A DNA stretch of 64,000 nt from Taiwanofungus camphoratus (Eukaryota > Basidiomycota > Agaricomycetes > Polyporales > Taiwanofungaceae): NCBI GenBank assembly GCA_003999685.1, contig CP021225.1, positions 1 through 64,000 of the forward strand, written 5' to 3'. Below, piece after piece: positions 1,143-31,250 of the stretch. A model generated the notes under the pieces. The model saw nothing but the letters and a program-made list of their open reading frames with translations. It was not told the origin of the DNA and did no database searches. How positions within the stretch are numbered: the first letter of the stretch is position 1; every line of letters starts with the position of its first letter. The position numbers were made by a program, and so were the translations under genes.

Positions 1143-2235
1143 ATGGCTCCACCTTCCACACCCCGTTCTTCTTCCGTCGGTCCCGGGTCTGCCTCACTTA
1201 GGTCTGCAATTGCCCGGAATCTTGCCCCCGCGAGCTTATCGTACGCTATCGGGGCGGCATCGCTTGAGACTGTTGCCGATGAGTTCCGAGCCATTTTTCA
1301 CGCAGAGACCATTGACCAAGTCTTCTCAGCTATACCTCTCGTCTATCGAGAGGTGCTCCGTCCGGTGCTGGTTAGCGTTGCGGAAGCGAAGGAACGTTCT
1401 GTTTCTTTGCAGAAGCAATTGGGTGACCTTGAGTCGCACAAAGCTAACGGTTCGCTCCCCCACCAGTTACAGGGGCTCAGCGAACCCGTCTTCCAGAGCT
1501 CAAAACTCTGGCTCGAGACGTCGCCGGCGGAGCCCGCAGCTCTGATAACCGAGTTCCAATCCTTCCGTCGGAAGGCTCTTGACTTGGCCATCGCCCAAAA
1601 GCGAGCAGAGCTCGCGTTCTTTGATCGCGCATTAGACCCGACAGCAATGTTGGAGAAAATGCGGACAGTGGTTGACGAACAGTGGGCGCGCATTAGCCAG
1701 TCTAGTCGCGTTCCTGTTTGGAGGGAAACTATCGACGGCGGTCAACGCTTAGATACGTGGACCAATGACCCTGTCCTCGAGTCTGAGTACAAGCGATTCG
1801 TCGCTGTGCTCCCACGCTTTGCCTTCCGGGTAGTTAATATCCGTGAATCACAACTGGCACAAGCCGCGGCTCGAGCGCAAGCAAAGTCTGCCGTCAAGGC
1901 TGCAGCGGAGGTCGAGATGGGTGACGCCACCGAGAACCCTGCAGCTTTGAAAAAGCTGATCGATGATGCGGTTGATCGTCGTCTCAAAGGCGAAGGCAGC
2001 TCAAAGAACGCGGTAAGTTTTGTACATGGTTCTGTTCCAAAAAGCTTACCAGGCGCCGCTCTATCACGTATTTTAGGGAGCAAAGGCAAAGGCGCCAAAA
2101 CGATCGGTGCGCATGAGTACGGGAGGACGCCCTCCCAAACCTCCGCAGCGCAAGGCCAAGCAGCAGCAGGCCGCTTCCTCTGCGAAGAAGCAGAAGAAGA
2201 CCAAAGATCGGAAAGGCAAAGGGAGAGCGAAATAA
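1143..2235 (+). CDS. Spliced ORF1 with histone-H3-like basic tail (A copy 1)
   Basis: Join of 1143-2012 and 2077-2235. Splicing the 64-nt intron (GTAAGT...TTTTAG) changes the frame and ends at TAA 2233-2235, giving 342 aa: the 290-residue N-terminal region plus a 52-residue tail. The tail is rich in Lys, Arg and Gln. It contains RMSTGG followed directly by RPPK (an AT-hook-like GRPPK) and ends in a run of Lys-Gly. Compared with family B, most codon differences across the core of this tail are silent in this frame. This is a prediction from sequence; no transcript evidence is available. The tail suggests nuclear, chromatin- or DNA-binding action. RMSTGG equals H3 residues 8-13 with K9 replaced by M. 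Confidence 0.68.
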
Positions 2236-4787: not shown

Positions 4788-5678
4788 GCTAAATCCTAAC
4801 CTAACCTAACCTAACTGAAGGCGCTATCGCGCCTTCTCCATTTGGTAGTTTTGGGAAATAAGACGCTCGTCACGTGACTTGCCCGAAAGGGCCGGACATG
4901 TGATCAGCATCCAGGCACGGACCGGTTGAGCCGCGAGGCTGGACTGGCCTGGGCACTACCTAGTTATGGTCACCAGCGCCCCTCTGCTGTGTTAGTCCAT
5001 GATCCGGTGATCTGTGAGGTGTAACATGCTATGGCACGGTGCGGCAACTTGCCGGACGCGGTCCTAGTGAATATCCCGCCCCCGCCCCGCATGGCTCGGT
5101 GAGGGTGTTCCTAGGGATCCTCAGGTTTGTGCCGTGACATGATGCTTCCTCAGTGGTCCACGCTGCCCTTATCTAGGCGCCCGGAAGTCGGACCGGTCAT
5201 GTGACTCGGTCGGCACCGGCCCGGATTGTTCTATTCCCACCCTTATCACCCTAACCGATGATAAGGGATCTCTTATCTATGAGTCATCTTAAATGACTCC
5301 TTATCTTTACATCTGATTATTATCTCTGATCAGGTGGCGGTATTGGTAAAGGCTAGGGCGTTCTAGCCTGCCTTTTGTCGGCCCGCTGATAAGAGATAAG
5401 AGAAATAGCTCTAATGTGATTGGAGCTCACCACTACCTCATGGCCTGGTTGGTCAAATAGAATCAGTCATCGGCCTCCGGCCGATGACTCAGGGTCAATC
5501 ATCTGATGACCCTGAACCATCGGTTAAAAGTACGACGAGAGTACTGATGAGCTCCTTAGCGAAACAAGTTGGTATCTGGCAACAGATACCTTTGTTTACT
5601 CTTGTCTTCTCTATTTTTCTCATCTCTTACTACGCTCGCCCGCCTATCGGCGGTCTCGCTCCACCTCCTAACCTAACC
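4788..5678 (+). repeat. 3' pseudo-LTR, family A copy 1
   Basis: Nearly identical to 110-999, and ending in CCTCCTAACCTAACC followed by about 40 bp of CCTAA repeats. In all four ORF-bearing units the downstream pLTR belongs to the same family as the ORF, so I treat it as part of the element rather than an unrelated insertion. Confidence 0.82.
5534..5606 (+). ncRNA. Type I hammerhead ribozyme, A copy 1 3' pLTR
   Basis: Identical to the ribozyme at 855-927. The predicted cleavage is after position 5596, so the two ribozymes of this unit would bound a 4,679-nt RNA. Confidence 0.92.
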
Positions 5679-6752: not shown

Positions 6753-7845
6753 ATGGCTCCACCTTCCACACCCCGTTCTTCTTCCGTCGGTCCCGGGTCT
6801 GCCTCACTTAGGTCTGCAATTGCCCGGAATCTTGCCCCCGCGAGCTTATCGTACGCTATCGGGGCGGCATCGCTTGAGACTGTTGCCGATGAGTTCCGAG
6901 CCATTTTTCACGCAGAGACCATTGACCAAGTCTTCTCAGCTATACCTCTCGTCTATCGAGAGGTGCTCCGTCCGGTGCTGGTTAGCGTTGCGGAAGCGAA
7001 GGAACGTTCTGTTTCTTTGCAGAAGCAATTGGGTGACCTTGAGTCGCACAAAGCTAACGGTTCGCTCCCCCACCAGTTACAGGGGCTCAGCGAACCCGTC
7101 TTCCAGAGCTCAAAACTCTGGCTCGAGACGTCGCCGGCGGAGCCCGCAGCTCTGATAACCGAGTTCCAATCCTTCCGTCGGAAGGCTCTTGACTTGGCCA
7201 TCGCCCAAAAGCGAGCAGAGCTCGCGTTCTTTGATCGCGCATTAGACCCGACAGCAATGTTGGAGAAAATGCGGACAGTGGTTGACGAACAGTGGGCGCG
7301 CATTAGCCAGTCTAGTCGCGTTCCTGTTTGGAGGGAAACTATCGACGGCGGTCAACGCTTAGATACGTGGACCAATGACCCTGTCCTCGAGTCTGAGTAC
7401 AAGCGATTCGTCGCTGTGCTCCCACGCTTTGCCTTCCGGGTAGTTAATATCCGTGAATCACAACTGGCACAAGCCGCGGCTCGAGCGCAAGCAAAGTCTG
7501 CCGTCAAGGCTGCAGCGGAGGTCGAGATGGGTGACGCCACCGAGAACCCTGCAGCTTTGAAAAAGCTGATCGATGATGCGGTTGATCGTCGTCTCAAAGG
7601 CGAAGGCAGCTCAAAGAACGCGGTAAGTTTTGTACATGGTTCTGTTCCAAAAAGCTTACCAGGCGCCGCTCTATCACGTATTTTAGGGAGCAAAGGCAAA
7701 GGCGCCAAAACGATCGGTGCGCATGAGTACGGGAGGACGCCCTCCCAAACCTCCGCAGCGCAAGGCCAAGCAGCAGCAGGCCGCTTCCTCTGCGAAGAAG
7801 CAGAAGAAGACCAAAGATCGGAAAGGCAAAGGGAGAGCGAAATAA
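6753..7845 (+). CDS. Spliced ORF1 with histone-H3-like tail (A copy 2)
   Basis: Join of 6753-7622 and 7687-7845, with the intron at 7623-7686 and stop at 7843-7845. Same 342-aa product as copy 1, including RMSTGG and the GRPPK motif. Confidence 0.66.
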
Positions 7846-10256
7846 TTCGGTCAGTTATTCGCTCGCGACTCCGTTTCTCCCAGCCGTCGTCTTATCCAGA
7901 CAGTATCCTAATGTTACCCTTGCCAGTTGCAGCTCGCACCCTCCTTTATTTCGCTCCGGTTGCTTTAGTCGAAGCGGCGAGGTTCAGAAGCTGGGTGCAT
8001 TGTGGCGAGGACGTTATACTACCGCCGGACATTAGCATACACATATCTTGCGGTTTGAAATATATGTTGTACTCCCCCCCGAGCGGGGAACTCATTCAAA
8101 CAGCGTTCGATGATTTCTGTGAACGAATACGCTGGCGAGTGTATTTTAAAGTTAAACAGATTCAACTCGAACGGCAAGGTATAAGCCAACCACCTTATGA
8201 TCCAGACTACGACCTTAGGGCTAAGCGGGACTCGTCCGCCCCTAGGGCCACACAATATATCGAAAACGGTCTTAAACGCGGGCAAACATACGTCACTGAT
8301 TACATACGTAGTGTCGTACCCGGTTTGAAAGCTAGAAGCCACCCTAATCGGCTTGTAGACCTGGACCGTGTTCGCCTCTGGTTGAACGAGCATAACTACC
8401 TCGTTCTCCAAACGGACAAGAATCTCGGTGCGGCAGTAGTCACAAGGGAATGGTTCATTAATGGTTGCATGAATCTTCTGTCAAATACGGCTGACTATCA
8501 GGAAATTAATCCCGGTCAGCGACAGATGTATTTAGAAAAAGTTACAAAGCGGGTTAAGGAGTTAAGCGATTGGGTCGAAGGGGCTTTGCCTAACGATCAG
8601 ACACTCCAATTAGCCAAATTCCTCCGGTCAAAATGTCCCGAGAGCGAGTTAGAGGAACCAAAGGTGCCTATCTTTTACGGGATCCCAAAAATCCATAAAT
8701 CCCCAGTAAAGATGCGACCTATTGTTCCATGTCACTCATGCGCTCAAGGGCCCGCGGCTAAAGTTGTATCTAAACTGTTGAAACCTATTATCGAGGCTGA
8801 GTCCTTTATTATACACGGATCAAAACATCTTGCGATCCAGTTAGCAAAGGTCAAAACGTTAAAATGGAAAAAGTATTGGTTAGTGGCTGGCGACGTTGTC
8901 GCTTTCTACCCAAATGTACCACTCAGAGATTGTGTTGGCATTGTGTCCAAATTGTACACAAGACATCCTCTGGGTAGTCAGTCTATGGACCAGCCCCAGT
9001 TTTATAATGCGCTGTTTATCAGGTGCATGCAAACAGCCAATTACGATTTAATAGTCGACTTCAACGGTCGTACTTACTTTCAAAAACGAGGACTAGCTAT
9101 GGGTGTGGCGTGTTCGCCTGACTTAGCTAATCTCTATGGATGCCATTTTGAAAATCAAGTATGGCCCGGTGGACAGGTTACTCCACCGTTCCTATATTAT
9201 GGTCGATACATTGATGATGTATTCGCCATAGTTGAAGCAGGTAGTGCGGCAGAAGCTTTAGAAGCCTGCCAAAGCCGTATATCTTATGATGGCTGCACTA
9301 TAACATGGGAAGTGTCTGAATGGGCGACGCCATTCCTTGACATGCTTATTTATATAGACCCCGTTTCTAACCGGGTGGAACATAAGCCATATCGGAAAGC
9401 ACTTAACCATCATGAACGAATTCCATGGGTATCTCACCACCCGAAGGATGTGAAAAAAGGCACATTCATTGGGGAGATGAGCCGTTTAGCTACGCTAAGT
9501 TCTAAGTTGGAACACTACCTAGATGCCCTTCATGGGCTTGTCGACCTGTATGTCGGCCGTGGCTATCCCCCTGCTCTGGTTACTTCTTGGCTTGATTCGC
9601 ATAAAGCGGTACGCTGGAAAGAACGTCTTGGAAAACCAAAATCTTCGACCGAAGATGCAGACCAAGTTGAGGGCGTACTTGCGATTAAGTCGAAGTTCAA
9701 CCCCTCATGGGATCAGTTCGATGTTCATGAATTAATGACACGTGTTACGGAATCGTGGGTGAAGGATTTATCTTTCTTTAAGTCCTTCTTTTCGGCGAGT
9801 TGGGAAAACTCGGCCGCTCCGATCTTTGAGTATTCGTCTGGGGGTCCTAAGGATGCGACCCTATCCAGCACAGTTCAGACCACGCTTGAGGAGTGGTGGG
9901 ATCCCGCCCGAGTAGCCCAGCGCAAGCTGTCGCGCGAAACGGCGGCTGCGGAAGCAGCAGCAGAACTCGCCGCCGCTGAAGCCAGGCGGTCCGATCAAAT
10001 CTCGAAACCGGTGGCAGTTGTCCATGACAACCGCGCGGACGAGGGCTGGGTTTGGACTGGGCGGTACCTGAAGAAACCCAACGGATTCATCGAAGCGGAG
10101 AAGGTCCCTGACCTTTCCCAACTCGGGTTCTTAGACAAGCGCTGGCTTGTGTCGCGTAAAAGGGAAACCAATTTCGCTGACTTAGCAAGCAAATGGCGCA
10201 GAAGTGTAATTAATGCCCAAAGTACAGATGATGTACTATTGGAAATGGACATATAA
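6753..10256 (+). CDS. Penelope-like reverse transcriptase, intron-retained form (A copy 2)
   Basis: The 1,167-aa translation is identical to that of copy 1, including YIDD, PKIHK and the C-terminal extension. Zero amino-acid change over the whole ORF means the copy is either very young or kept identical by recombination. It is apparently as active as copy 1. Confidence 0.93.
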   Translation: MAPPSTPRSSSVGPGSASLRSAIARNLAPASLSYAIGAASLETVADEFRAIFHAETIDQVFSAIPLVYREVLRPVLVSVAEAKERSVSLQKQLGDLESHKANGSLPHQLQGLSEPVFQSSKLWLETSPAEPAALITEFQSFRRKALDLAIAQKRAELAFFDRALDPTAMLEKMRTVVDEQWARISQSSRVPVWRETIDGGQRLDTWTNDPVLESEYKRFVAVLPRFAFRVVNIRESQLAQAAARAQAKSAVKAAAEVEMGDATENPAALKKLIDDAVDRRLKGEGSSKNAVSFVHGSVPKSLPGAALSRILGSKGKGAKTIGAHEYGRTPSQTSAAQGQAAAGRFLCEEAEEDQRSERQRESEIIRSVIRSRLRFSQPSSYPDSILMLPLPVAARTLLYFAPVALVEAARFRSWVHCGEDVILPPDISIHISCGLKYMLYSPPSGELIQTAFDDFCERIRWRVYFKVKQIQLERQGISQPPYDPDYDLRAKRDSSAPRATQYIENGLKRGQTYVTDYIRSVVPGLKARSHPNRLVDLDRVRLWLNEHNYLVLQTDKNLGAAVVTREWFINGCMNLLSNTADYQEINPGQRQMYLEKVTKRVKELSDWVEGALPNDQTLQLAKFLRSKCPESELEEPKVPIFYGIPKIHKSPVKMRPIVPCHSCAQGPAAKVVSKLLKPIIEAESFIIHGSKHLAIQLAKVKTLKWKKYWLVAGDVVAFYPNVPLRDCVGIVSKLYTRHPLGSQSMDQPQFYNALFIRCMQTANYDLIVDFNGRTYFQKRGLAMGVACSPDLANLYGCHFENQVWPGGQVTPPFLYYGRYIDDVFAIVEAGSAAEALEACQSRISYDGCTITWEVSEWATPFLDMLIYIDPVSNRVEHKPYRKALNHHERIPWVSHHPKDVKKGTFIGEMSRLATLSSKLEHYLDALHGLVDLYVGRGYPPALVTSWLDSHKAVRWKERLGKPKSSTEDADQVEGVLAIKSKFNPSWDQFDVHELMTRVTESWVKDLSFFKSFFSASWENSAAPIFEYSSGGPKDATLSSTVQTTLEEWWDPARVAQRKLSRETAAAEAAAELAAAEARRSDQISKPVAVVHDNRADEGWVWTGRYLKKPNGFIEAEKVPDLSQLGFLDKRWLVSRKRETNFADLASKWRRSVINAQSTDDVLLEMDI

Positions 10257-10397: not shown

Positions 10398-11287
10398 GCT
10401 AAATCCTAACCTAACCTAACCTAACTGAAGGCGCTATCGCGCCTTCTCCATTTGGTAGTTTTGGGAAATAAGACGCTCGTCACGTGACTTGCCCGAAAGG
10501 GCCGGACATGTGATCAGCATCCAGGCACGGACCGGTTGAGCCGCGAGGCTGGACTGGCCTGGGCACTACCTAGTTATGGTCACCAGCGCCCCTCTGCTGT
10601 GTTAGTCCATGATCCGGTGATCTGTGAGGTGTAACATGCTATGGCACGGTGCGGCAACTTGCCGGACGCGGTCCTAGTGAATATCCCGCCCCCGCCCCGC
10701 ATGGCTCGGTGAGGGTGTTCCTAGGGATCCTCAGGTTTGTGCCGTGACATGATGCTTCCTCAGTGGTCCACGCTGCCCTTATCTAGGCGCCCGGAAGTCG
10801 GACCGGTCATGTGACTCGGTCGGCACCGGCCCGGATTGTTCTATTCCCACCCTTATCACCCTAACCGATGATAAGGGATCTCTTATCTATGAGTCATCTT
10901 AAATGACTCCTTATCTTTACATCTGATTATTATCTCTGATCAGGTGGCGGTATTGGTAAAGGCTAGGGCGTTCTAGCCTGCCTTTTGTCGGCCCGCTGAT
11001 AAGAGATAAGAGAAATAGCTCTAATGTGATTGGAGCTCACCACTACCTCATGGCCTGGTTGGTCAAATAGAATCAGTCATCGGCCTCCGGCCGATGACTC
11101 AGGGTCAATCATCTGATGACCCTGAACCATCGGTTAAAAGTACGACGAGAGTACTGATGAGCTCCTTAGCGAAACAAGTTGGTATCTGGCAACAGATACC
11201 TTTGTTTACTCTTGTCTTCTCTATTTTTCTCATCTCTTACTACGCTCGCCCGCCTATCGGCGGTCTCGCTCCACCTCCTAACCTAAC
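10398..11287 (+). repeat. 3' pseudo-LTR, family A copy 2
   Basis: Copy of 4788-5678. The terminal CCTCCTAACCTAAC is fused to the family B leader GCTAATCC. Confidence 0.82.
11144..11216 (+). ncRNA. Type I hammerhead ribozyme, A copy 2 3' pLTR
   Basis: Identical to 855-927. Confidence 0.92.
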
Positions 11288-12370: not shown

Positions 12371-13487
12371 ATGGCCAATCGCCTACCTCGTTCTGGATCC
12401 ACCCGTTCGTCTTCCGCAGGACCAGGTGGAGCATCACTTCGCGCCGCTATTGCGCGGAACCTTGCTCCCCCCTCGTTGGCTTATGCCATGGGAGCGACGT
12501 CACTTGAGACTATTGCCGATGAGTTCCGCGCCGTCCTTTCAGCCGAAACATTTGACACAGTGTTATCAGTCGTGCCTCTCGTATACCGGGAGGTACTCCG
12601 CCCGGTTTTGGCTAGCATTGCGGAAGCGAAGGAACGCTGCGTTTCTTTGTCGAAGCAAGTGGGTGAGCTCGAGGCTCATCTTGCCAATGGTTCCCTTCCG
12701 CCCCAGTTACAAGGCATGGGGGAACCCGTTTTCCAGTCAGCGAAAGTTTGGCTGGAAACACACCCGGCGGAACCAGGGGCTCTTGCGGAGAAATTTAAAA
12801 CGTTTCGCCGCGAAGCACTCGCTTTAGCCATAGCGCAAAAGCGTGCTGAGCTCACGTTCTTTGAGGGCGCGCTGGACCCTACTACCATGTTGGGGAAGGC
12901 ACGCGATGTGGTCGACTCACAATGGGCTGCGATCTCACAAGGATCGCGTGTCCCTAAGTGGAGAACTTCTCTCGACGGGAACGTCGAGATCGAAGGTTGG
13001 CAGAACGACCCCGTCCTTGAGTCGGAACACAAGCGATTCGTCGCTGTGCTCCCGCGGTTTTGCTTCCGTGTCGTGAATATTCGCGAATCACAGCTAGCAC
13101 ATGCCGCGACTCGAGCCAATGCAAAGAGTGCCCTCAAGGCAGTGGCGGAGGTAGAAATGAGTGATACCACCGAGAACCCTGCTGCCTTGAAGAAGTTGAT
13201 TGATGATGCTGTGGATCGTCGGTTGAAAGGTGAGGGCACCTCAAAGAACGTTAAACAGCAGGTCAGTTTTGTACATGGTTCAGTACCGAAAAACTTACCT
13301 GGCGCCACCCTCTTTCGTATTCTAGAAGGGCAAAGGCAAGGCGCCAAATCGTTCGGCGCGCATGAGCACAGGAGGACGCCCTCCGAAAGCTCCGCAGCGC
13401 GCGGCAAAGCAAAAGCAGGCCGCTTCATCGAAGAAAGCTTCGACGATGAAGAAGAACAAAGGGAAAGGGAAAGGGAGACCGAACTAA
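12371..13487 (+). CDS. Spliced ORF1 with histone-H3-like basic tail (family B)
   Basis: Join of 12371-13261 and 13326-13487, giving 350 aa with TAA at 13485-13487. The tail includes ARMSTGG then RPPKAP, followed by a Lys-rich end. ARMSTGG is histone H3 residues 7-13 with Lys9 replaced by Met. Across the core of the tail the A/B codon differences are about two silent for each replacement in this frame. This supports real translation of the spliced frame. Function is unknown; chromatin association is inferred. Confidence 0.68.
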
Positions 13488-15898
13488 TACGGTCAGTACT
13501 CCGGTCGCGACTCAGATTTTCGCAACCCTCAACTTACCCTGATGAATTACTTGATCTACCCACTCCAGTCGGGGCACGCACCCTCCTTTACTTTGCACCG
13601 GCGGCTTTAGTCGAGGCACAGAGGTTCCGGACTTGGGTTCATGTTGGCGACGGAGTTAGTTTACCTGCGGAGATCAGTATTCATATTTCTTGCGGACTTA
13701 AGTACATGCTGTACGCTCGCCCTTCTGGCGAGTTAGTTCAAAACGCTTACGATGATTTTTGTGAAAGAATTCGGTGGAGAGTTCATTTCGCCTGCAAACA
13801 AAAGATTCTTGAGCGACAAGGAATAAGTCAACCACCATATGACCCAGACTATGACTTGAGGTTGAAACGCGATAGCAACGCACCTCAAGCCAGCCAATAT
13901 ATCGAACTTGGTCTTAAACGCGGGCAAACATACGTCACTGAATTCATACGCACTGTCGTACCCGGTTTGAAAGCTAGGAGTCGCCCTAATCGACTCGTAG
14001 ACCTGGACAAAGTTCGCCTCTGGCTGGACGAGCATAACTACCTCGTCCTCCAAACGGATAAGAACCTCGGTGCTGCTGTAGTCACAAAGGAATGGTTCAT
14101 AAATGGTTGCAACTTACTTCTGTCTAATACGGCTGACTATCAGGAAATTAATCCTGGTCAGCGACAGATGTACTTAGAAAAGGTTACTAAGCGGGTTAAG
14201 GAGTTAAGCGATTGGGTCGAAGGGGCTTTGCCTCATGATCAGACACTCCAGTTAGCCAAATTTCTTCGGTCAAAATGTCCCGAGAGCGAGTTGGAAGAGC
14301 CAAAGGTTCCCATCTTCTATGGTATCCCAAAAATCCATAAGACACCGGTGAAAATGCGGCCTATTGTGCCCTGTCATTCATGCGCTCAAGGCCCCGCGGC
14401 TAAAGTAGTATCCAAGTTGTTGAAACCCATCATAGAGGCTGAGCCCTTTATTATACATGGCAGCAAAAACCTTGCAGCCAAGTTAGCAACAGTTAAAACA
14501 CTAAAATACAAAAAGTATTGGCTTGTGGCCGGCGACGTAGTCGCTTTCTACCCCAATGTACCTCTCAGAGAATGCGTAGGCATTGTATCTAAATTGTACA
14601 TCAGTCATCCACTAGGTAGTCAAACAACGGACCACCCCGAATTTTATAACGCCTTATTTATTCGGTGTATGCAATCAGCCAATTACGATCTAATAGTTGA
14701 CTTCAACGGTCACACATTCCTTCAAAAGCGAGGATTAGCTATGGGAGTGGCATGTTCGCCCGACCTAGCTAATCTATATGGATGCCATTTTGAAAATAAA
14801 GTCTGGCCTTCTGGGCAGGTTAGCCCACCCTTTCTTTATTATGGGCGGTACATCGATGATGTATTCGCTATCGTTGAAGCAGGTAGTGCAGCGGAAGCAC
14901 TTGAACTCTGCACCAGTCGTATCTCATACACTGGTTGTACTATAACATGGGAAGTGTCGGAATGGGCAACGCCATTCCTTGACATGCTTATTTATATTGA
15001 CCCCGTAACCAACCGGGTGGAACATAAGCCGTATCGAAAGGCACTTAACCATCATGAAAGAATACCATGGATATCTCACCATCCAAAGGACGTTAAAAAA
15101 GGCACGTTCATTGGAGAGATGAGCCGTTTAGCCACGCTAAGTTCTAAGTTGGAACATTACTTAGATGCCCTTCATGGGCTTGTCGATTTGTACGTCGGCC
15201 GTGGTTATCCCCCTGCTCTAGTTGTTGCATGGCTTGACGCACATAAAGCAGTACGCTGGGCGAAACGTTTGGACATTAAACAAACTTCGACCGAAGCGGC
15301 GGACGCGAATGATGGCGTACTTGTACTCAAGTCGCAATTTAACCCTTCATGGGATTCTTTCGATATTCATGAATTAATGACACGAGTCACCGGATCTTGG
15401 GTGGAGTCTTTGAGTTTTTTCAAAAACTTCTTTTCGGCGAGTTGGGAAAACTCGGCCGCTCCGATTTTCGATTATTCGGCTGGGGGTTCGCGGGATGCGA
15501 CCCTATCCGGCACAGTTCAGACCACGCTTGAGGAGTGGTGGGATCCCGCTCGAGTAGCCCAGCGTAAGCTGTCGCGCGAAACGGCGGCTGCTTCGGCAGC
15601 AGCAGATCGTGCCGCCGCTGAAGCCCGGCGGTCTGATCAAATCTCTAACCTGGCGGCGGCTGTCCATGATAACCGCGCAGAAGAGGGCTGGGTATGGACT
15701 GGGCGGTACCTAAGGAAACCCACCGGATTTATTGAGGCGGAGAAGGTCGCAGACCTTTCCCAACTCGGATTCTTAGACAAGCGCTGGCTTGTGTCTCGAA
15801 AACGGGAAACCAATTTCGCAGACTTAGCAAGTAAATGGCGCAGAAGTGTTATTAATGCCCAAAGTGCGGATGACGTACTTCTGGAAATGGATATATAA
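12371..15898 (+). CDS. Penelope-like reverse transcriptase, intron-retained form (family B)
   Basis: 1,175-aa protein from the ATG at 12371; upstream in-frame codons begin with a TTG and do not align with A. The N-terminal region aligns with A (GASLRAAIARNLAP, SLETIADEF). All RT motifs are present: DKNLGAAVV, GIPKIHK, GDVVAFYPNVP, KRGLAMGVACSPDLANLYG, RYIDDVFAI, FLDML and SHHPKDVKKG. There is no GIY-YIG nuclease. The last ~70 residues differ from A at only a handful of positions. The frame is intact and the element is probably functional or recently so. Confidence 0.93.
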   Translation: MANRLPRSGSTRSSSAGPGGASLRAAIARNLAPPSLAYAMGATSLETIADEFRAVLSAETFDTVLSVVPLVYREVLRPVLASIAEAKERCVSLSKQVGELEAHLANGSLPPQLQGMGEPVFQSAKVWLETHPAEPGALAEKFKTFRREALALAIAQKRAELTFFEGALDPTTMLGKARDVVDSQWAAISQGSRVPKWRTSLDGNVEIEGWQNDPVLESEHKRFVAVLPRFCFRVVNIRESQLAHAATRANAKSALKAVAEVEMSDTTENPAALKKLIDDAVDRRLKGEGTSKNVKQQVSFVHGSVPKNLPGATLFRILEGQRQGAKSFGAHEHRRTPSESSAARGKAKAGRFIEESFDDEEEQRERERETELIRSVLRSRLRFSQPSTYPDELLDLPTPVGARTLLYFAPAALVEAQRFRTWVHVGDGVSLPAEISIHISCGLKYMLYARPSGELVQNAYDDFCERIRWRVHFACKQKILERQGISQPPYDPDYDLRLKRDSNAPQASQYIELGLKRGQTYVTEFIRTVVPGLKARSRPNRLVDLDKVRLWLDEHNYLVLQTDKNLGAAVVTKEWFINGCNLLLSNTADYQEINPGQRQMYLEKVTKRVKELSDWVEGALPHDQTLQLAKFLRSKCPESELEEPKVPIFYGIPKIHKTPVKMRPIVPCHSCAQGPAAKVVSKLLKPIIEAEPFIIHGSKNLAAKLATVKTLKYKKYWLVAGDVVAFYPNVPLRECVGIVSKLYISHPLGSQTTDHPEFYNALFIRCMQSANYDLIVDFNGHTFLQKRGLAMGVACSPDLANLYGCHFENKVWPSGQVSPPFLYYGRYIDDVFAIVEAGSAAEALELCTSRISYTGCTITWEVSEWATPFLDMLIYIDPVTNRVEHKPYRKALNHHERIPWISHHPKDVKKGTFIGEMSRLATLSSKLEHYLDALHGLVDLYVGRGYPPALVVAWLDAHKAVRWAKRLDIKQTSTEAADANDGVLVLKSQFNPSWDSFDIHELMTRVTGSWVESLSFFKNFFSASWENSAAPIFDYSAGGSRDATLSGTVQTTLEEWWDPARVAQRKLSRETAAASAAADRAAAEARRSDQISNLAAAVHDNRAEEGWVWTGRYLRKPTGFIEAEKVADLSQLGFLDKRWLVSRKRETNFADLASKWRRSVINAQSADDVLLEMDI
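13262..13325 (+). other. Optional 64-nt intron inside the PLE ORF (family B)
   Basis: GTCAGT donor, TTCTAG acceptor, same length and codon phase as in family A. Donor and acceptor signals are kept while many third positions of the RT-frame codons within it have changed silently. Confidence 0.7.
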
Positions 15899-17499: not shown

Positions 17500-18592
17500 A
17501 TGGCTCCACCTTCCACACCCCGTTCTTCTTCCGTCGGTCCCGGGTCTGCCTCACTTAGGTCTGCAATTGCCCGGAATCTTGCCCCCGCGAGCCTATCGTA
17601 CGCTATCGGGGCGGCATCGCTTGAGACTGTTGCCGATGAGTTCCGAGCCATTTTTCACGCAGAGACCATTGACCAAGTCTTCTCAGCTATACCTCTCGTC
17701 TATCGAGAGGTGCTCCGTCCGGTGCTGGTTAGCGTTGCGGAAGCAAAGGAACGTTCTGTTTCTCTGCAGAAGCAATTGGGTGACCTTGAGTCGCACAAAG
17801 CTAACGGTTCGCTCCCCCACCAGTTACAGGGGCTCAGCGAACCCGTCTTCCAGAGCTCAAAACTCTGGCTCGAGACGTCGCCGGCGGAACCCGCAGCTCT
17901 GATAACCGAGTTTCAATCCTTCCGTCGGAAGGCTCTTGACTTGGCCATCGCCCAAAAGCGAGCAGAGCTCGCGTTCTTTGATCGCGCATTGGACCCGACA
18001 GCAATGTTGGAAAAAATGCGGACAGTGGTTGACGAGCAATGGGCGCGCATTAGCCAGTCTAGTCGCGTTCCTGTTTGGAGGGAAACTATCGATGGCGGTC
18101 AACGCCTAGATACGTGGACCAATGACCCTGTCCTCGAGTCTGAGTACAAGCGATTCGTCGCCGTGCTCCCACGCTTTGCCTTCCGGGTAGTTAATATCCG
18201 AGAATCACAACTGGCACAAGCCGCGGCTCGAGCGCAAGCAAAGTCTGCCGTCAAGGCTGCAGCGGAGGTCGAGATGGGTGACGCCACCGAGAACCCTGCA
18301 GCTTTGAAAAAGCTGATCGATGATGCGGTTGATCGTCGTCTCAAAGGCGAGGGCAGCTCAAAGAACGCGGTAAGTTTTGTACATGGTTCTGTTCCAAAAA
18401 GCTTACCAGGCGCCGCTCTATCACGTATTTTAGGGAGCAAAGGCAAAGGCGCCAAAACGATCGGTGCGCATGAGTACGGGAGGACGTCCTCCCAAACCTC
18501 CGCAGCGCAAGGCCAAGCAGCAGCAGGCCGCTTCCTCTGCGAAGAAGCAGAAGAAGACCAAAGATCGGAAAGGCAAAGGGAGAGCGAAATAA
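17500..18592 (+). CDS. Spliced ORF1 with histone-H3-like tail (A copy 3)
   Basis: Join of 17500-18369 and 18434-18592; intron 18370-18433 (GTAAGT...TTTTAG), stop 18590-18592. The tail keeps RMSTGG. The change that makes GRTSSQ in the RT frame (CCC to TCC) is silent here (CGC to CGT, Arg). Confidence 0.66.
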
Positions 18593-21003
18593 TCCGGTCA
18601 GTTATTCGCTCGCGACTCCGCTTCTCCCAGCCGTCGTCTTACCCAGACAGTATCCTAATGTTACCCTTGCCTGTTGCAGCTCGCACCCTCCTTTATTTCG
18701 CTCCGGTTGCTTTAGTCGAAGCGGCGAGGTTCAGAAGCTGGGTACACTGTGGCGAGGATGTTATTTTACCGCCGGACATTAGCATACATATATCTTGCGG
18801 TCTGAAATATATGTTGTATTCCTCCCCGAGCGGGGAACTCATTCAGACAGCGTTCGATGACTTCTGTGAACGAATACGCTGGCGAGTGTATTTTAAAATT
18901 AAACAGATTCAACTCGAACGGCAAGGTATAAGTCAACCACCATATGATCCAGACTACGACCTTAGGGCTAAGCGGGACTCGTCCGCCCCTAGGGCCACAC
19001 AATATATCGAAAACGGTCTTAAACGCGGGCAAACATACGTCACTGATTACATACGTAGTGTCGTACCCGGTTTGAAAGCTAGAAGCCACCCTAACCGGCT
19101 TGTAGACCTGGACCGTGTTCGCCTCTGGTTGAACGAGCATAACTACCTCGTTCTCCAAACGGATAAGAACCTTGGTGCGGCAGTAGTCACAAGGGAATGG
19201 TTCATTAATGGTTGCATGAATCTTTTGTCAAATACGGCTGACTATCAAGAAATTAATCCCGGTCAGCGACAAATGTATTTAGAAAAAGTTACAAAGCGGG
19301 TTAAGGAGTTAAGCGATTGGGTCGAAGGGGCTTTGCCTAACGATCAGACACTCCAATTAGCCAAATTCCTCCGGTCAAAATGTCCCGAGAGCGAGTTAGA
19401 GGAACCAAAGGTACCTATCTTTTACGGGATTCCTAAAATCCATAAATCCCCAGTAAAGATGCGACCTATTGTTCCGTGTCACTCATGCGCTCAAGGACCC
19501 GCGGCTAAAGTTGTATCTAAATTGTTGAAACCTATCATAGAGGCTGAGCCCTTTATTATACATGGATCAAAACATCTTGCGATCCAGTTAGCAAAGGTTA
19601 AAACGTTAAAATGGAAAAAGTATTGGTTAGTGGCTGGCGACGTTGTCGCTTTCTACCCTAATGTACCACTCAGAGATTGTGTTGGCATTGTGTCCAAACT
19701 GTACACAAGACATCCTCTGGGTAGTCAGTCTATGGACCAGCCCCAGTTTTATAATGCGCTGTTTATCAGGTGCATGCAAACGGCCAATTACGATTTAATA
19801 GTCGACTTCAACGGCCGTACTTACTTTCAAAAGCGAGGATTAGCTATGGGTGTGGCGTGTTCGCCTGACTTAGCTAATCTCTATGGATGCCATTTTGAAA
19901 ATCAAGTATGGCCCGGTGGACAGGTTACTCCACCGTTTCTATATTATGGTCGATACATTGATGATGTGTTTGCCATAGTTGAAGCAGGTAGTGCGGCAGA
20001 AGCTCTAGAAGCCTGCCAAAGCCGTATATCATATGACGGCTGTACTATAACATGGGAAGTGTCTGAATGGGCGACGCCATTCCTTGACATGCTTATTTAT
20101 ATAGACCCCGTTTCTAACCGGGTGGAACATAAGCCTTATCGGAAAGCACTTAACCATCATGAACGGATTCCATGGGTATCTCACCACCCGAAGGATGTGA
20201 AAAAAGGCACATTCATTGGGGAGATGAGCCGTTTAGCCACGCTAAGTTCTAAGTTGGAACATTACCTAGATGCCCTTCATGGGCTTGTCGACCTGTATGT
20301 CGGCCGTGGCTATCCCCCCGCTCTGGTTACTTCTTGGCTTGACTCGCATAAAGCGGTACGCTGGAAAGAACGTCTTGGAAAACCAAAATCTTCGACCGAA
20401 GATGCAGACCAAGTTGAGGGCGTACTTGCGATTAAGTCTAAGTTCAACCCCTCATGGGATCAGTTCGATGTTCATGAATTAATGACACGTGTTACGGAAT
20501 CGTGGGTGAAGGACTTATCTTTCTTTAAGTCCTTCTTTTCGGCGAGTTGGGAAAACTCGGCCGCTCCGATCTTTGAGTATTCGTCTGGGGGTCCTAAGGA
20601 TGCGACCCTATCCAGCACAGTTCAGACCACGCTTGAGGAGTGGTGGGATCCCGCCCGAGTAGCCCAGCGCAAGCTGTCGCGCGAAACGGCGGCTGCGGAA
20701 GCAGCAGCAGAACTCGCCGCCGCTGAAGCCAGGCGGTCCGATCAAATCTCGAAACCGGTGGCAGTTGTCCATGACAACCGCGCGGACGAGGGCTGGGTTT
20801 GGACTGGGCGGTACCTGAAGAAACCCAACGGATTCATCGAAGCGGAGAAGGTCCCTGACCTTTCCCAACTCGGATTCTTAGACAAGCGCTGGCTTGTGTC
20901 GCGTAAAAGGGAAACCAATTTCGCTGACTTAGCAAGCAAATGGCGCAGAAGTGTAATTAATGCCCAAAGTACAGATGATGTACTTCTGGAAATGGATATA
21001 TAA
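17500..21003 (+). CDS. Penelope-like reverse transcriptase, intron-retained form (A copy 3)
   Basis: 1,167-aa protein identical in plan to copies 1 and 2. A few replacements are visible: Pro to Ser in GRTSSQ and YSSPSGE, Val to Ile in FKIKQ, and Ser to Pro in EAEPFII, the last matching family B. YIDD, PKIHK and motif A are intact and there is no stop or frameshift. Many more silent than replacement differences from copy 1 are visible, which fits purifying selection. Confidence 0.93.
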   Translation: MAPPSTPRSSSVGPGSASLRSAIARNLAPASLSYAIGAASLETVADEFRAIFHAETIDQVFSAIPLVYREVLRPVLVSVAEAKERSVSLQKQLGDLESHKANGSLPHQLQGLSEPVFQSSKLWLETSPAEPAALITEFQSFRRKALDLAIAQKRAELAFFDRALDPTAMLEKMRTVVDEQWARISQSSRVPVWRETIDGGQRLDTWTNDPVLESEYKRFVAVLPRFAFRVVNIRESQLAQAAARAQAKSAVKAAAEVEMGDATENPAALKKLIDDAVDRRLKGEGSSKNAVSFVHGSVPKSLPGAALSRILGSKGKGAKTIGAHEYGRTSSQTSAAQGQAAAGRFLCEEAEEDQRSERQRESEIIRSVIRSRLRFSQPSSYPDSILMLPLPVAARTLLYFAPVALVEAARFRSWVHCGEDVILPPDISIHISCGLKYMLYSSPSGELIQTAFDDFCERIRWRVYFKIKQIQLERQGISQPPYDPDYDLRAKRDSSAPRATQYIENGLKRGQTYVTDYIRSVVPGLKARSHPNRLVDLDRVRLWLNEHNYLVLQTDKNLGAAVVTREWFINGCMNLLSNTADYQEINPGQRQMYLEKVTKRVKELSDWVEGALPNDQTLQLAKFLRSKCPESELEEPKVPIFYGIPKIHKSPVKMRPIVPCHSCAQGPAAKVVSKLLKPIIEAEPFIIHGSKHLAIQLAKVKTLKWKKYWLVAGDVVAFYPNVPLRDCVGIVSKLYTRHPLGSQSMDQPQFYNALFIRCMQTANYDLIVDFNGRTYFQKRGLAMGVACSPDLANLYGCHFENQVWPGGQVTPPFLYYGRYIDDVFAIVEAGSAAEALEACQSRISYDGCTITWEVSEWATPFLDMLIYIDPVSNRVEHKPYRKALNHHERIPWVSHHPKDVKKGTFIGEMSRLATLSSKLEHYLDALHGLVDLYVGRGYPPALVTSWLDSHKAVRWKERLGKPKSSTEDADQVEGVLAIKSKFNPSWDQFDVHELMTRVTESWVKDLSFFKSFFSASWENSAAPIFEYSSGGPKDATLSSTVQTTLEEWWDPARVAQRKLSRETAAAEAAAELAAAEARRSDQISKPVAVVHDNRADEGWVWTGRYLKKPNGFIEAEKVPDLSQLGFLDKRWLVSRKRETNFADLASKWRRSVINAQSTDDVLLEMDI

Positions 21004-21144: not shown

Positions 21145-22030
21145 GCTAAATCCTAACCTAACCTAACCTAACTGAAGGCGCTACCGCGCCTTCTCCATTT
21201 GGTAGTTTTGGGAAATAAGACGCTCGTCACGTGACTTGCCCGAAAGGGCCGGACATGTGATCAGCATCCAGGCACGGATCGGTTGAGCCGCAAGGCTGGA
21301 CTGGTCTGGGCACAACCTAGTTATGGTCTCCAGCGCCCCTCTGCTGTGTTAGTCCATGATCCGGTGATCTGTGAGGTGTAACATGCTATGGCACGGTGCG
21401 GCAACTTGCCGGACGCGGTCCTAGTGGATATCCAGCCCCCGCCCCGCATGGCTCGGTGAGGGTGTCCCTAGGGATCCTCAGGTTTGTGCCGTGACATGAT
21501 GCTTCCTCAGTGGTCCACGCTGCCCTTATCTAGGCGCCCGGAAACCGGACCGGTCATGTGACCCGTTCGACACCGGCCCGGATTGTTCTATTCCCACCCT
21601 GTCATCCTAACCGATGATAAGAGATCTCTTATCTATGAGTCATATTAAATGACTCCTTATCTTTACATCTGATTGTTATCTCTGATCAGGCGACGGTATT
21701 GGTAAAGGCTAGGGCGTTCTAGCCTGCCTTTTGTCGGCCCGTCGATAAGAGATAAGAGAAATAGCTCTGATGTGATTGGAGCTCATTACTACCTCATGGC
21801 CTGGTTGGTCAAATTGAATCAGTCATCGGCCCTTGGCCGATGACTCAGGGTCAATCATCTGATGACCCTGAACCATCGGTTAAAAGTACGACGAGAGTAC
21901 TGATGAGCTCTTAGCGAAACAAGCTGGTATCTGGCGACAGATACTTTTGTTTACTCTTGTCTTCTCTATTCTTCTCATCTCTTACTACGCTCGCCCGCCT
22001 ATCGGCGGTCTCGCTCCACCTCCTAACCGA
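21145..22030 (+). repeat. 3' pseudo-LTR, family A copy 3
   Basis: Full-length A pLTR with several substitutions. The leader hairpin loop changes from TATC to TACC with the stem kept. It ends CCTCCTAACC and is followed by CCTAA repeats to 22062. Confidence 0.85.
21890..21961 (+). ncRNA. Type I hammerhead ribozyme, A copy 3 3' pLTR
   Basis: Core intact. Stem II loop is CTT rather than CCTT; stem III GGTATCT/AGATACT keeps pairing through a G-U. Confidence 0.9.
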
Positions 22031-23813: not shown

Positions 23814-24340
23814 ATGCTTCCTCAGTGGTCCACGCTGCCCTTATCTAGGCGCCCGGAAGTCGGACCGGTCATGTGACTCGGTCGGCACCGGCCCGGATTG
23901 TTCTATTCCCACCCTGTCATCCTAACCGATGATAAGGGATCTCTTATCTATGAGTCATATCAAATGACTCCCTATCTTTACATCTGATTGTTATCTCTGA
24001 TCAGGTGGCGGTATTGGTAAAGGCTAGGGCGTTCTAGCCTGCCTTTTGTCGGCCCGTTGATAAGAGATAAGAGAAATAGCTCTGATGTGATTGGAGCTCA
24101 TTACTACCTCATGGCCTGGTTGGTCAAACTGAATCAGTCATCGGCCTCCGGCCGATGACTCAGGGTCGATCAGCTGATGACCCTGAACCATCGGTTAAAA
24201 GTACGACGAGAGTACTGATGAGCTCTTAGCGAAACAAGTGGGTATCTAGCGATAGATACCATTGTTTACTCTTGTCTTCTCTATTTTTCTCATCTCTTCC
24301 TACGCTCGCCCGCCTATCGGCGGTCTCGCTCCACCTCCTA
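23814..24340 (+). repeat. 5'-truncated pseudo-LTR, family A
   Basis: Starts at ATGCTTCCTCAGTGG inside the block shared by A and B and continues to the A terminus. It is the innermost unit of this stratum, attached to the telomere seed at 24,338. Confidence 0.85.
24205..24276 (+). ncRNA. Type I hammerhead ribozyme, truncated A pLTR
   Basis: Core intact; stem III GGTATCT/AGATACC with a changed loop. Confidence 0.9.
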
Positions 24341-28440: not shown

Positions 28441-31250
28441 TGGCTAGCCTGCTGCCCTTGTTCCCGGCCAAATATCTCATTTTAAAGCCTGTTCCCGGAC
28501 ATCACAAGTTGTCTACTTTTACAATTTTAGATTGTCTCTACCACAGTATATAGCCATTAAAGTTCACCAATGTTGAGTGGTCTGAGGCTTTACAAGTATG
28601 CAGATTATTCTCAGCTATTTAGTCTAGCTCTCAGCTCACTGCAAATATATTTTTTGTACTCACTGTCAAAAAACAGGTAATCACAGTGTCAAGGGCTGAA
28701 TATTTCACTGTTCATGTCCAGCTTGTGTACAGACCTGCTTTCAGACACTCTGAAGCTCTGTGCCTTTGTTCCCGGGCAAATATCTCATTTTAAAGCTTGT
28801 TCCCGGACACCACAAGATTTACTGTAGTCACATAATGTTCAGGTCCGGGAACAAGCAAAGGACTGAGGTAATTACACATTTATTAGACTGTCAGTGGATT
28901 GTTGATCATGCTCTTTCATGCTGTGCACTCAGAATTCTCAGAATCCTATCAGAATGTCACTTTGTCAAATCTCTGCTATCTGACAGGTGATCACAGTGTC
29001 AAGAGCTGGATATTCAACTGTTCATGTTCAGCTTGTGTACAGACCTGCTTTGACATATTCTGAAGCCCTGTGCCTTTGTTCCCAGGCAAATATCCTATTT
29101 TAAAGCTTGTTCCCGGACACCACAAGATTTCTCATAGTCCAATAATGTTCAGGTCCGGGAACAAGCAAAAGAGTGAGATAATGTCACATCTGTTGACCTC
29201 TCCATGGCTTATTGATCATGATCTTTCCATCTGTGCTCTCAGAATTATCAATTTCTCATCAGAACATCACTTGCTCAATGTCTGCTCTGTCACTGGTAAT
29301 CACAGTGTCAAGAGCTGGATATTCAACTGTTCATGTTCAGCTTGTGTACAGACCTGCTTTGACATATTCTGAAGCCCTGTGCCTTTGTTCCCGGGCAAAT
29401 ATCCTATTTTAAAGCTTGTTCCCGGACACCACAAGATTTCTCATAGTCCAATAATGTTCAGGTCTGGGAACAAGCAAAAGAGTGAGATAATGCCACATCT
29501 GTTGACCTCCCCATGGCTTATTGATCATGATCTTTCCATCTGTGCTCTCAGAATTATCAATTTCTCATCAGAACATCACTTGCTCAATGTCTGCTCTGTC
29601 ACTGGTAATCACAGTGTCAAGAGCTGAATATTCAACTGTTCATGTCCAGCTTGTGTACAGACCTGCTTTGACACATTCTGAAGCCCTGTGCCTTTGTTCC
29701 CGGGCAAATATCTCATTTTAAAGCTTGTTCCCGGACACCACAAGATTTGCTATAGTCACATAATGTTCAGGTCCGGGAACAAGCAAAGGACTGAGATAAT
29801 GCCACATCTGTTGACCTCTCCATGGCTTATTGATCATGGTCTTTCCATCTGTGCTCTCAGAATGATCAATTTCTCACCACAACATCACTTGCTCAATGTC
29901 TGCTCTGTCACAGGTGATCATAGTGTCAAGGGCTCAATATTCAACTTTTTTATAATCTGCTTGCACAGGCACCTGCTCTGAAGCATTCTGAAGCTCTCTG
30001 CCTTTGTTCCCGAACAATTTGACCTTGGTAAAGCTTGTTCCCGGACCTCACAAGTTTTTTCAGAGGCCAACAATGTCCATGCCCGGGAACAGGCAATGGA
30101 GTGAGATAATTGGACAACTAGGGAGTTCCCGAGTAGGTTATTGATGATGCTCTTTGATTCTGTCTACTCAGAATTGTCAAAAAGGGATGGGAAAGCTTGT
30201 TCCCGGACCTGACTGGAATAGGGTACCCTATTCCAGACAGCATATATATAGGTTATTGATGGTCCTTTTACATTCTGTCTACTCAGAATTGTCAGATTTT
30301 TATCAGAATGTCACTTTTTCAACAATCTGCTGTCTAACAGGTGATAACAGTGTCAGAGGCTGAATATTCAACTGTTCATGATCAGCTTGTGTACAGACCT
30401 GCTTTCAGATGTTCTTGAGGGATCTGCCAAACTTCCCGGGCAAATATCTCAATTTCAAGTCACTTCCCAGGCATTATAAGATTTCTCATAATCAGAAATA
30501 TTCAAGTCAATTTTCAGCCAATGGTGTGAGATAATGACACAGCTGTTGAGCTTTTAGTGGATTGTTGAGAATTCTCTTTCATTCTGTCTGTTCAGAATTA
30601 TCAGATTTCTATCAGAAAGTCACTTACTCAAAGTTCCCTGTCTGACAGGTAATGACAGTGTCAATGGCTGGATATTCAACTGTTTATGACCAGCTTGTGT
30701 ACAGACCTGCTTTCAGATGTCCTTGACAGGTCTGCCAAACTTTCCGGGCAAATATCTTAATTTTAGGTCACTTCCCAGGCATCACAAGATTTTCTATAAT
30801 CAGAAATGTTCAAGTTAATTTCCAGCCAATAATATGAGATAATGACACAGCTGTTGAGCTCTCAGTGGGTTATTGAGGATTCTCTTTCATTCTGTCTGTT
30901 CAGAATTATCAGATTTCTATCAGAAAGTCACTTACTCAAAGTTCCCTGTCTGACAGGTAATGACAGTGTCAATGGCTGGATATTCAACTGTTCATGACCA
31001 GCTTGCGTACAGACCTGCTTTCAGATGTCCTTGAAAGGTCTGCCAAACTTCCCGGGCAAATATCTTAATTTTAGGTCACTTCCCGGACATCACAAGTTTT
31101 TCTCTAGTTCCATAATATCCAGGCCCGGGAAGTGACCAGGATGAGCTCCAATGGTGGATCTTTTCACTTCCCGGGGGGGGTTTTCTATGATGCTCTTCGA
31201 TTCTGTCTACTCAGAATTGCCAAAATCTCGTTAGAAAGTCACTTTCTGGA
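28440..31250. repeat. ~310-bp tandem satellite, about nine units
   Basis: Units carrying TTCCCGGGCAAATATC recur near 28458, 28766, 29076, 29386, 29695, 30005, 30430, 30738 and 31048. Spacing is 304-310 bp except one longer interval. Most units have an inverted repeat, GCTTGTTCCCGGAC and GTCCGGGAACAAGC, about 35 nt apart. Units at 29.07-29.98 kb are most alike. Short repeated open frames (starting MPLFPGKY) are satellite by-products, not genes. Confidence 0.85.
30213..30236. repeat. 24-nt perfect palindrome followed by TATATATA
   Basis: A perfect palindrome centred on GGTACC, flanked downstream by CATATATATAGG. The same palindrome-TATA pair recurs at 31256-31279, where it precedes a hammerhead. 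Confidence 0.7.

Follow-up and report, generated by a model that had tools for sequence, protein, structure and literature searches.

Organization of the locus

The assembly examined comprises 33.2 Mb in 15 contigs, and the window, by which we mean the whole stretch of DNA analyzed here, covers the opening 64 kb of contig C6. The element and the gene structure point to a fungal host, probably a basidiomycete. The window starts with a (CCTAA)n tract, which is followed by four elements with long open frames and several leader-only units. Tracts of (CCTAA)n separate the units, and the 3' ends of the elements face the centromere. The elements fall into two families, A and B, and the features to which we refer below are as follows.

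138–985, + strand: 5' leader of the first family A element, recurring as leader-only units (from sequence and repeats)
1143–2012, + strand: exon 1 of ORF1, family A, 290 aa
1143–4646, + strand: unspliced ORF1-RT fusion frame, 1167 aa from its ATG, with RVT_1 in the second half
2013–2076, + strand: predicted 64-nt intron, GTAAGT...TTTTAG, stop-free in the RT frame
2045–2049, + strand: CTTAC, a candidate branch site whose position is shared by 43/43 copies
2077–2235, + strand: basic tail of the spliced ORF1, 52 aa plus a stop codon, in overlap with the RT frame
2098–2121, + strand: KRSVRMST, an HMGN-core-like octapeptide (NRSARMST in family B)
2107–2127, + strand: VRMSTGG, similar to H3 residues 7 to 13, with Met at the Lys9 position
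6753–10256, + strand: second family A element, fused frame; intron 7623–7686, tail 7687–7845
12371–15898, + strand: family B element, fused frame
12371–13261, 13262–13325 and 13326–13487, + strand: exon 1, intron and tail (53 aa and stop) of the family B element
13356–13376, + strand: ARMSTGG of the family B element
17500–21003, + strand: third family A element, fused frame; intron 18370–18433, tail 18434–18592

The leader-only units, which lack ORF1, lie at 4816–5664, 10426–11274, 21173–22019 and 23814–24334, the last one being partial. Their junction with (CCTAA)n falls close to the position of an internal CCTAACCTAA in full elements (988–997), which suggests that a telomeric overhang may be able to prime inside the element RNA at this site. 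Within the leader, a hammerhead-like core was spotted by eye at 865–886; the core motif of hammerhead ribozymes is CTGATGA ... GAAAC. Rfam reported no hammerhead ribozyme in positions 1–24500 at the gathering score, and the three weak matches obtained in positions 760–1010 at E values up to 5 included none to a hammerhead. Inward of the telomeric elements, two tandem arrays occupy positions 28673–31104, with units of 309 and 308 bases in 4.6 and 2.7 copies, respectively.

Genomic distribution and classification of the element

A genome-wide search for ORF1 returned 43 matches from 43 candidates, comprising 19 copies of family A and 24 of family B. No copy was more than about 31 kb away from a contig end, and strand followed position, low contig ends carrying + strand copies and high ends - strand copies (43/43). 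The initial annotation had likewise placed the element at chromosome ends. The matched part was stop-free in 41 copies, and the remaining two carried 1 and 5 stops. The equivalent search for the RT part returned 51 matches from 52 candidates, most of which belong to the same copies as ORF1 by their coordinates. Comparison of the reference copies of families A and B showed 73% identity in ORF1 and 87% in the RT part.

The Pfam family RVT_1 was recognized in the RT part with 29.8 bits, just over its cut-off of 29.6. No endonuclease, GIY-YIG included, and no other Pfam family was detected in the 768-aa RT part at E values up to 1, and no PDB sequence matched the RT at E values up to 0.1. Searches of NCBIfam returned only bacterial RT matches, which were weak and far under their cut-offs, and returned none for ORF1 or tail A. 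Exon 1 of family A ORF1 had no Pfam match at E values up to 1. The predicted model of ORF1 was mostly helical and of low confidence (mean pLDDT of 62.3), and a fold search with it gave 260 matches at E values up to 10 and none at 0.001; therefore, we conclude nothing about ORF1 beyond its being mostly helical.

The orientation of the copies, their telomeric setting and the lack of a detected endonuclease fit a telomere-bound Penelope-like retroelement of the endonuclease-deficient type. In fungi, the endonuclease-deficient Penelope-like elements are known as Coprina, and the element described here is probably of the Coprina type; Athena is found in rotifers. Elements of this class are described as having an RT without endonuclease, inserting at chromosome ends and bearing telomeric repeats at the 5' end (PMC3846280); our element likewise has an RT with no detected endonuclease, lies at chromosome ends and bears telomeric repeats at its 5' end. 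No relatives were found in the viral_contigs or genome_contigs collections.

A conserved candidate intron between ORF1 and a basic tail

All 43 ORF1 copies contain a 64-nt GT...AG intron with the donor GTNAGT and the acceptor TAG. The donor is GTAAGT in 19/19 copies of family A, and in the 24 copies of family B it is GTCAGT (17 copies), GTTAGT (6 copies) or GTGAGT (1 copy); some of the family B donors may be weak. The intron ends in TTTTAG or TTCTAG, with CTTAC about 28 nt upstream of the acceptor. In every one of the 43 copies, removal of the intron leads into an open basic tail, and retention of the intron leaves the ORF1-RT fused frame open through both intron and tail. The arrangement is BARE/copia-like, in that one long frame persists when the intron is retained and is cut short by its removal, here in 43/43 copies. 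The tail ends at the same stop in 43/43 copies, 6 of those in family B carrying one extra codon, and the spliced ORF1 would be 342 aa long, or 350 aa in the family B copy of the window. We recovered the tails at the positions assigned to them by the initial annotation, 2077–2235 in family A and 13326–13487 in family B, each behind a 64-nt intron. Its readings of VRMSTGG (family A) and ARMSTGG (family B) within a Lys/Arg-rich tail were likewise reproduced, and RMSTGG, which it had described as common to the four ORF-bearing copies of the window, is present in all four.

In the predicted fold of 20/20 distinct introns, the donor is base-paired to CTTACC within the same intron (2012–2050 in family A). 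The pairing involves 9 to 10 of 10 bases, with shuffle p values of 0.01 to 0.15 across the 20 distinct introns, and the hairpin of the family A stretch has a z score of -0.95. Such pairing could act as a brake on splicing, with the qualification that the statistics are weak and that both stretches are also constrained by coding.

Silent changes in the overlapping frames

We classed the variants within family B by their effect in each frame and compared them with all possible changes at an equal transition rate. In exon 1, 58 of 62 changes were silent in the fused frame (30% expected), as were 52 of 72 downstream of the tail (27% expected). Over the tail, only 3 of 20 changes were silent in the fused RT frame (32% expected), and the tail frame had 15 silent changes out of 20 (31% expected; P = 7.7e-5), a test that covers a single family of 24 copies in a single genome and counts variants rather than independent events, such that telomeric gene conversion may weaken the p values. 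The tail frame exceeded expectation in none of the three non-tail regions, and the third frame in none of the four regions. The pattern of silent changes thus reverses over the tail, and therefore the selected frame switches where the splice model predicts; the tail looks truly coding. Between families A and B, the picture over the tail is less clear-cut: among codons differing at one base, silent and non-silent differences numbered 9 and 9 in the tail frame, against 1 and 16 in the fused frame. Exon 1 of family B ends three codons later, and the out-of-register A/B row for exon 1 was excluded. The family A tail had 2 changes within the family, too few for a frame test.

Within the intron, silent changes in the fused frame accounted for 11 of the 17 changes in family B (P = 0.0098) and for 9 of the 11 codon differences between A and B (P = 0.0017). 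Because the tail frame is conserved over the tail and the fused frame is conserved in the intron, both the spliced and the unspliced products seem to be used.

Probable production of two proteins from one stretch

Intron signals, open frames and selection on both frames suggest that splicing occurs and is partial. Since the tail is selected and the intron is conserved as RT frame, the unspliced RNA most likely encodes ORF1-RT and the spliced RNA the tailed ORF1. We consider it probable that this is a telomeric Penelope-like element, with no detected endonuclease, whose optional splicing yields two proteins from a single stretch. The 1167-aa ORF1-RT fusion would come from unspliced RNA, and removal of the 64-nt intron would shift the frame to yield the 342-aa ORF1 that ends in the basic tail of 52 to 53 aa.

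Alternatively, the intron might always be removed, with RT produced by re-initiation past the ORF1 stop and the open fused frame persisting as a by-product. The poor conservation of the fused frame over the tail (3/20 silent) would suit constant removal, as would the GTAAGT donor of all 19 family A copies. However, the intron is conserved as coding in the fused frame and is devoid of fused-frame stops in 43/43 copies, and we regard constant removal as unlikely.

Optional splicing into two proteins would allow the element to produce its structural ORF1 in excess of RT, in the manner of Gag in BARE and copia. The tail would bind RNA, DNA or nucleosomes, to which its charge points, and this binding may hold the particle of the element on telomeric chromatin. 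In barley BARE1, a small intron is spliced from part of the RNA to give a Gag-only message, and in Drosophila copia nearly all of pol (2950 nt) is removed to give a Gag-dedicated RNA (PMC3735527). As presented in that account, BARE1 resembles our element in having one long ORF with an optional small intron, removal of which shifts the frame and leaves the structural protein. BARE1 differs in belonging to the Copia superfamily and in reaching a stop three residues past Gag, where our element has a conserved overlapping tail of 52 to 53 aa; moreover, the splicing of BARE1 was shown on RNA, whereas that of our element is predicted from sequence. Copia likewise has a spliced RNA for the structural protein, but it loses 2950 nt where our element would lose 64 nt (PMC3735527). 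Among the papers listed in a literature search on Coprina and other Penelope-like elements, those naming Coprina including no founding paper, no title or abstract describes optional splicing or an ORF1 tail of this kind.

Composition and conservation of the tail

Lys and Arg make up 20 of the 52 residues of tail A, with a single Asp or Glu, and 18 of the 52 residues of the commonest tail B, with none. The two tails are identical at 34/52 residues. RMST and RSxRMST are each invariant in 43/43 copies and RMSTGG is found in 42/43, with VRMSTGG in 19/19 copies of family A and ARMSTGG in 23/24 of family B; the exception is one family B copy that reads RMSTRG. We rejected the idea that RMSTGG is specially protected: one of the few amino acid changes in the family B tail (RMSTRG) hits the motif, and the ten-residue run shared by A and B, RMSTGGRPPK, is no longer than expected at their level of identity (P = 0.15). 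Within 33 Mb, a degenerate codon pattern for R-M-S-T-G-G picked out 42 element copies plus 9 sites elsewhere, and 2 of these 9 encode RMSTGG; a reversed control pattern had 10 matches.

The core of the AT-hook is RGRP. The initial annotation had likened the RPPK that follows the motif to an AT-hook, and the likeness holds to the extent that the six-residue AT-hook core reached a shuffle p value of 0.005 in both families. The RGRP core itself is absent from 42/43 copies, which read GGRPPK, and RGRPPK occurs only in the RMSTRG copy. That copy (C5c, L042; C5:2814800–2820000) reads RMSTRGRPPK and contains the full core.

Resemblance of the tail to nucleosome-binding proteins

HMGN2 contacts the H2A-H2B acidic patch mainly through R23 and R26 of RRSARLSA, in tardigrade Dsup a serine also contributes to acidic-patch binding, and further proteins with the HMGN/Dsup motif are expected by the authors (PMC12487698). 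Like HMGN and Dsup, the tail has two arginines and a serine at HMGN spacing (PMC12487698, PMC6773438). By analogy, RS-x-R-M-S could bind the acidic patch via its two arginines and tether the element protein to nucleosomes. In agreement with such an anchor, RSxRMST retains both arginines and the serine in 43/43 copies, with L replaced by M, and the HMGN core gave shuffle p values of 0.003 (A) and 0.0005 (B) by BLOSUM62; when identity alone was scored, however, these were 0.16 (A) and 0.011 (B). HMG14_17 was the sole Pfam family reported for tail A at E values up to 10 (E = 0.34), but its 12.3 bits are far under the Pfam cut-off of 23.5 bits, and tail B had no Pfam match at all at E values up to 10. 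Furthermore, HMGN proteins are described as vertebrate-only (PMC6773438). The tail differs from HMGN in falling well under the HMG14_17 cut-off, and we therefore do not claim HMGN membership for what is a likeness of sequence. We view an HMGN-like anchor as unlikely, and as a rival of similar weight to the H3 reading that follows.

Resemblance of the tail to histone H3

The initial annotation had proposed that the tail mimics histone H3 with Met in place of Lys9. If so, the tail would enter the pocket of a Clr4-type SET domain with Met standing for Lys9 and hold the enzyme, and H3K9 methylation would fall at element-bearing telomeres. The accompanying statement that H3K9M inhibits H3K9 methyltransferases agrees with data on Clr4, since an H3K9M peptide binds the Clr4 SET domain with SAM and blocks the enzyme in vitro (PMC5030085). 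Clr4 favors R at -1 and, after the target residue, S at +1 and T at +2 (PMC7700585), and all three surround the Met at the target position in 43/43 copies. SUV39H1 prefers K at -5, T, S, A or Y at -3 and G, K or Q at +3 (PMC8303541). Of these, K at -5 is present in family A and S at -3 in both families, and G occupies +3 in all copies but the one that breaks the motif (RMSTRG). Against this, family B has N at -5, and family A has V at -2, the Ala7 position of H3, which is not among the accepted residues that the SUV39H1 report names (PMC8303541). A non-histone R-M stretch can work in this way in mammals, where the VRMR of EZHIP mimics H3K27M (PMC12713659). EZHIP resembles the tail in having R-M at a histone methylation site; EZHIP is a tested case and targets PRC2, whereas the tail would concern H3K9.

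One Clr4-like gene was detected in the host. The host H3 tail is canonical, ARTKQTARKSTGGKAPRK, as read by eye in one gene examined in full. A single Pre-SET match lies beside a SET match, and the solved sequences closest to the Pre-SET exon are H3K9 methyltransferases, among them Clr4 (E = 8e-13) and DIM-5 (E = 6e-5). HP1 was not singled out, as the chromodomain search scored 150 matches out of 271 candidates, and many of these lay in frames of more than 1000 aa; chromodomain matches in such long frames are expected from LTR elements.

We compared the tails with H3 by shuffling, using for family B the commonest 52-aa form (10/24 copies) rather than the 53-aa form of the window. Over the whole tail against H3 1–38, 3000 shuffles gave p values of 0.07 (A) and 0.016 (B) by BLOSUM62 and of 0.34 (A) and 0.02 (B) for the best 7-mer identity, before the many possible motifs are counted. 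H3 6–16, a segment picked after the fact, gave 0.0014 (A) and 0.0006 (B). The H3K9M 7–13 target was reached by 0/20000 tail shuffles, which is no test because the target was taken from the tail itself. In a panel of 15 motifs scored on the same tails of both families by BLOSUM62, H3 6–16, the HMGN core and the short AT-hook core overlapped, with p values of 0.0005 to 0.005 in both families. H3 5–18 and 7–13 reached 0.0007 to 0.0053, and Dsup and a longer HMGN2 stretch reached 0.005 to 0.02. In this panel H3 1–10, H3 20–30, H3 23–34, H4, H2A, the longer AT-hook and the bipartite nuclear signal did not stand out. No histone was matched by tail A or B at E values up to 10, either in Pfam or among PDB sequences; the PDB search gave FCP1 for tail A and ParB for tail B.

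Capture of the motif from the host H3 gene was considered and rejected. The serine codon is AGY in 43/43 element copies versus TCN in the five RKSTGG pattern matches that adjoin histone hits, and the flanking bases of one host RKSTGG match, compared by eye, also differ from those of the element. As serine codons and flanking bases differ, nothing points to an H3 gene as the origin of the motif.

The letters of the proposed mimicry thus stand, with Met at the Lys9 position, but the resemblance is not clearly beyond chance (whole-tail P = 0.07 and 0.016). A basic tail rich in S, T and G will resemble histones easily. Since 7% of shuffled A tails and 1.6% of shuffled B tails match H3 1–38 equally well, a methyltransferase decoy is possible and unproven, and, with other chromatin motifs fitting the same stretch about equally well, we judge it improbable. 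Also improbable is a natural H3K9M mimic confined to the spliced ORF1, with which splicing would switch the element between copying itself and disarming chromosome-end heterochromatin. That the tail frame is an untranslated accident of overlapping frames, and the H3 resemblance noise, is a further improbable reading, as the excess of silent changes in the tail frame (15/20; P = 7.7e-5), though small in number, is not seen for that frame outside the tail, which is open to the same stop in 43/43 copies bar one extra codon in 6 family B copies. Most likely, the H3-like letters are part of a basic, chromatin-facing tail rather than a specific methyltransferase decoy. A literature search on histone mimicry by retrotransposons gave nothing on such a tail among the matches listed.

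Significance

If the two-protein reading is true, a Penelope-like element sets the ratio of its structural protein to RT, as described for LTR elements. The conserved protein tail would be concealed by its overlap with the RT ORF, where annotation of open frames alone would miss it. The tail also frames a testable question as to how elements at chromosome ends engage telomeric chromatin: through nucleic acid, the nucleosome patch or an H3K9 writer.
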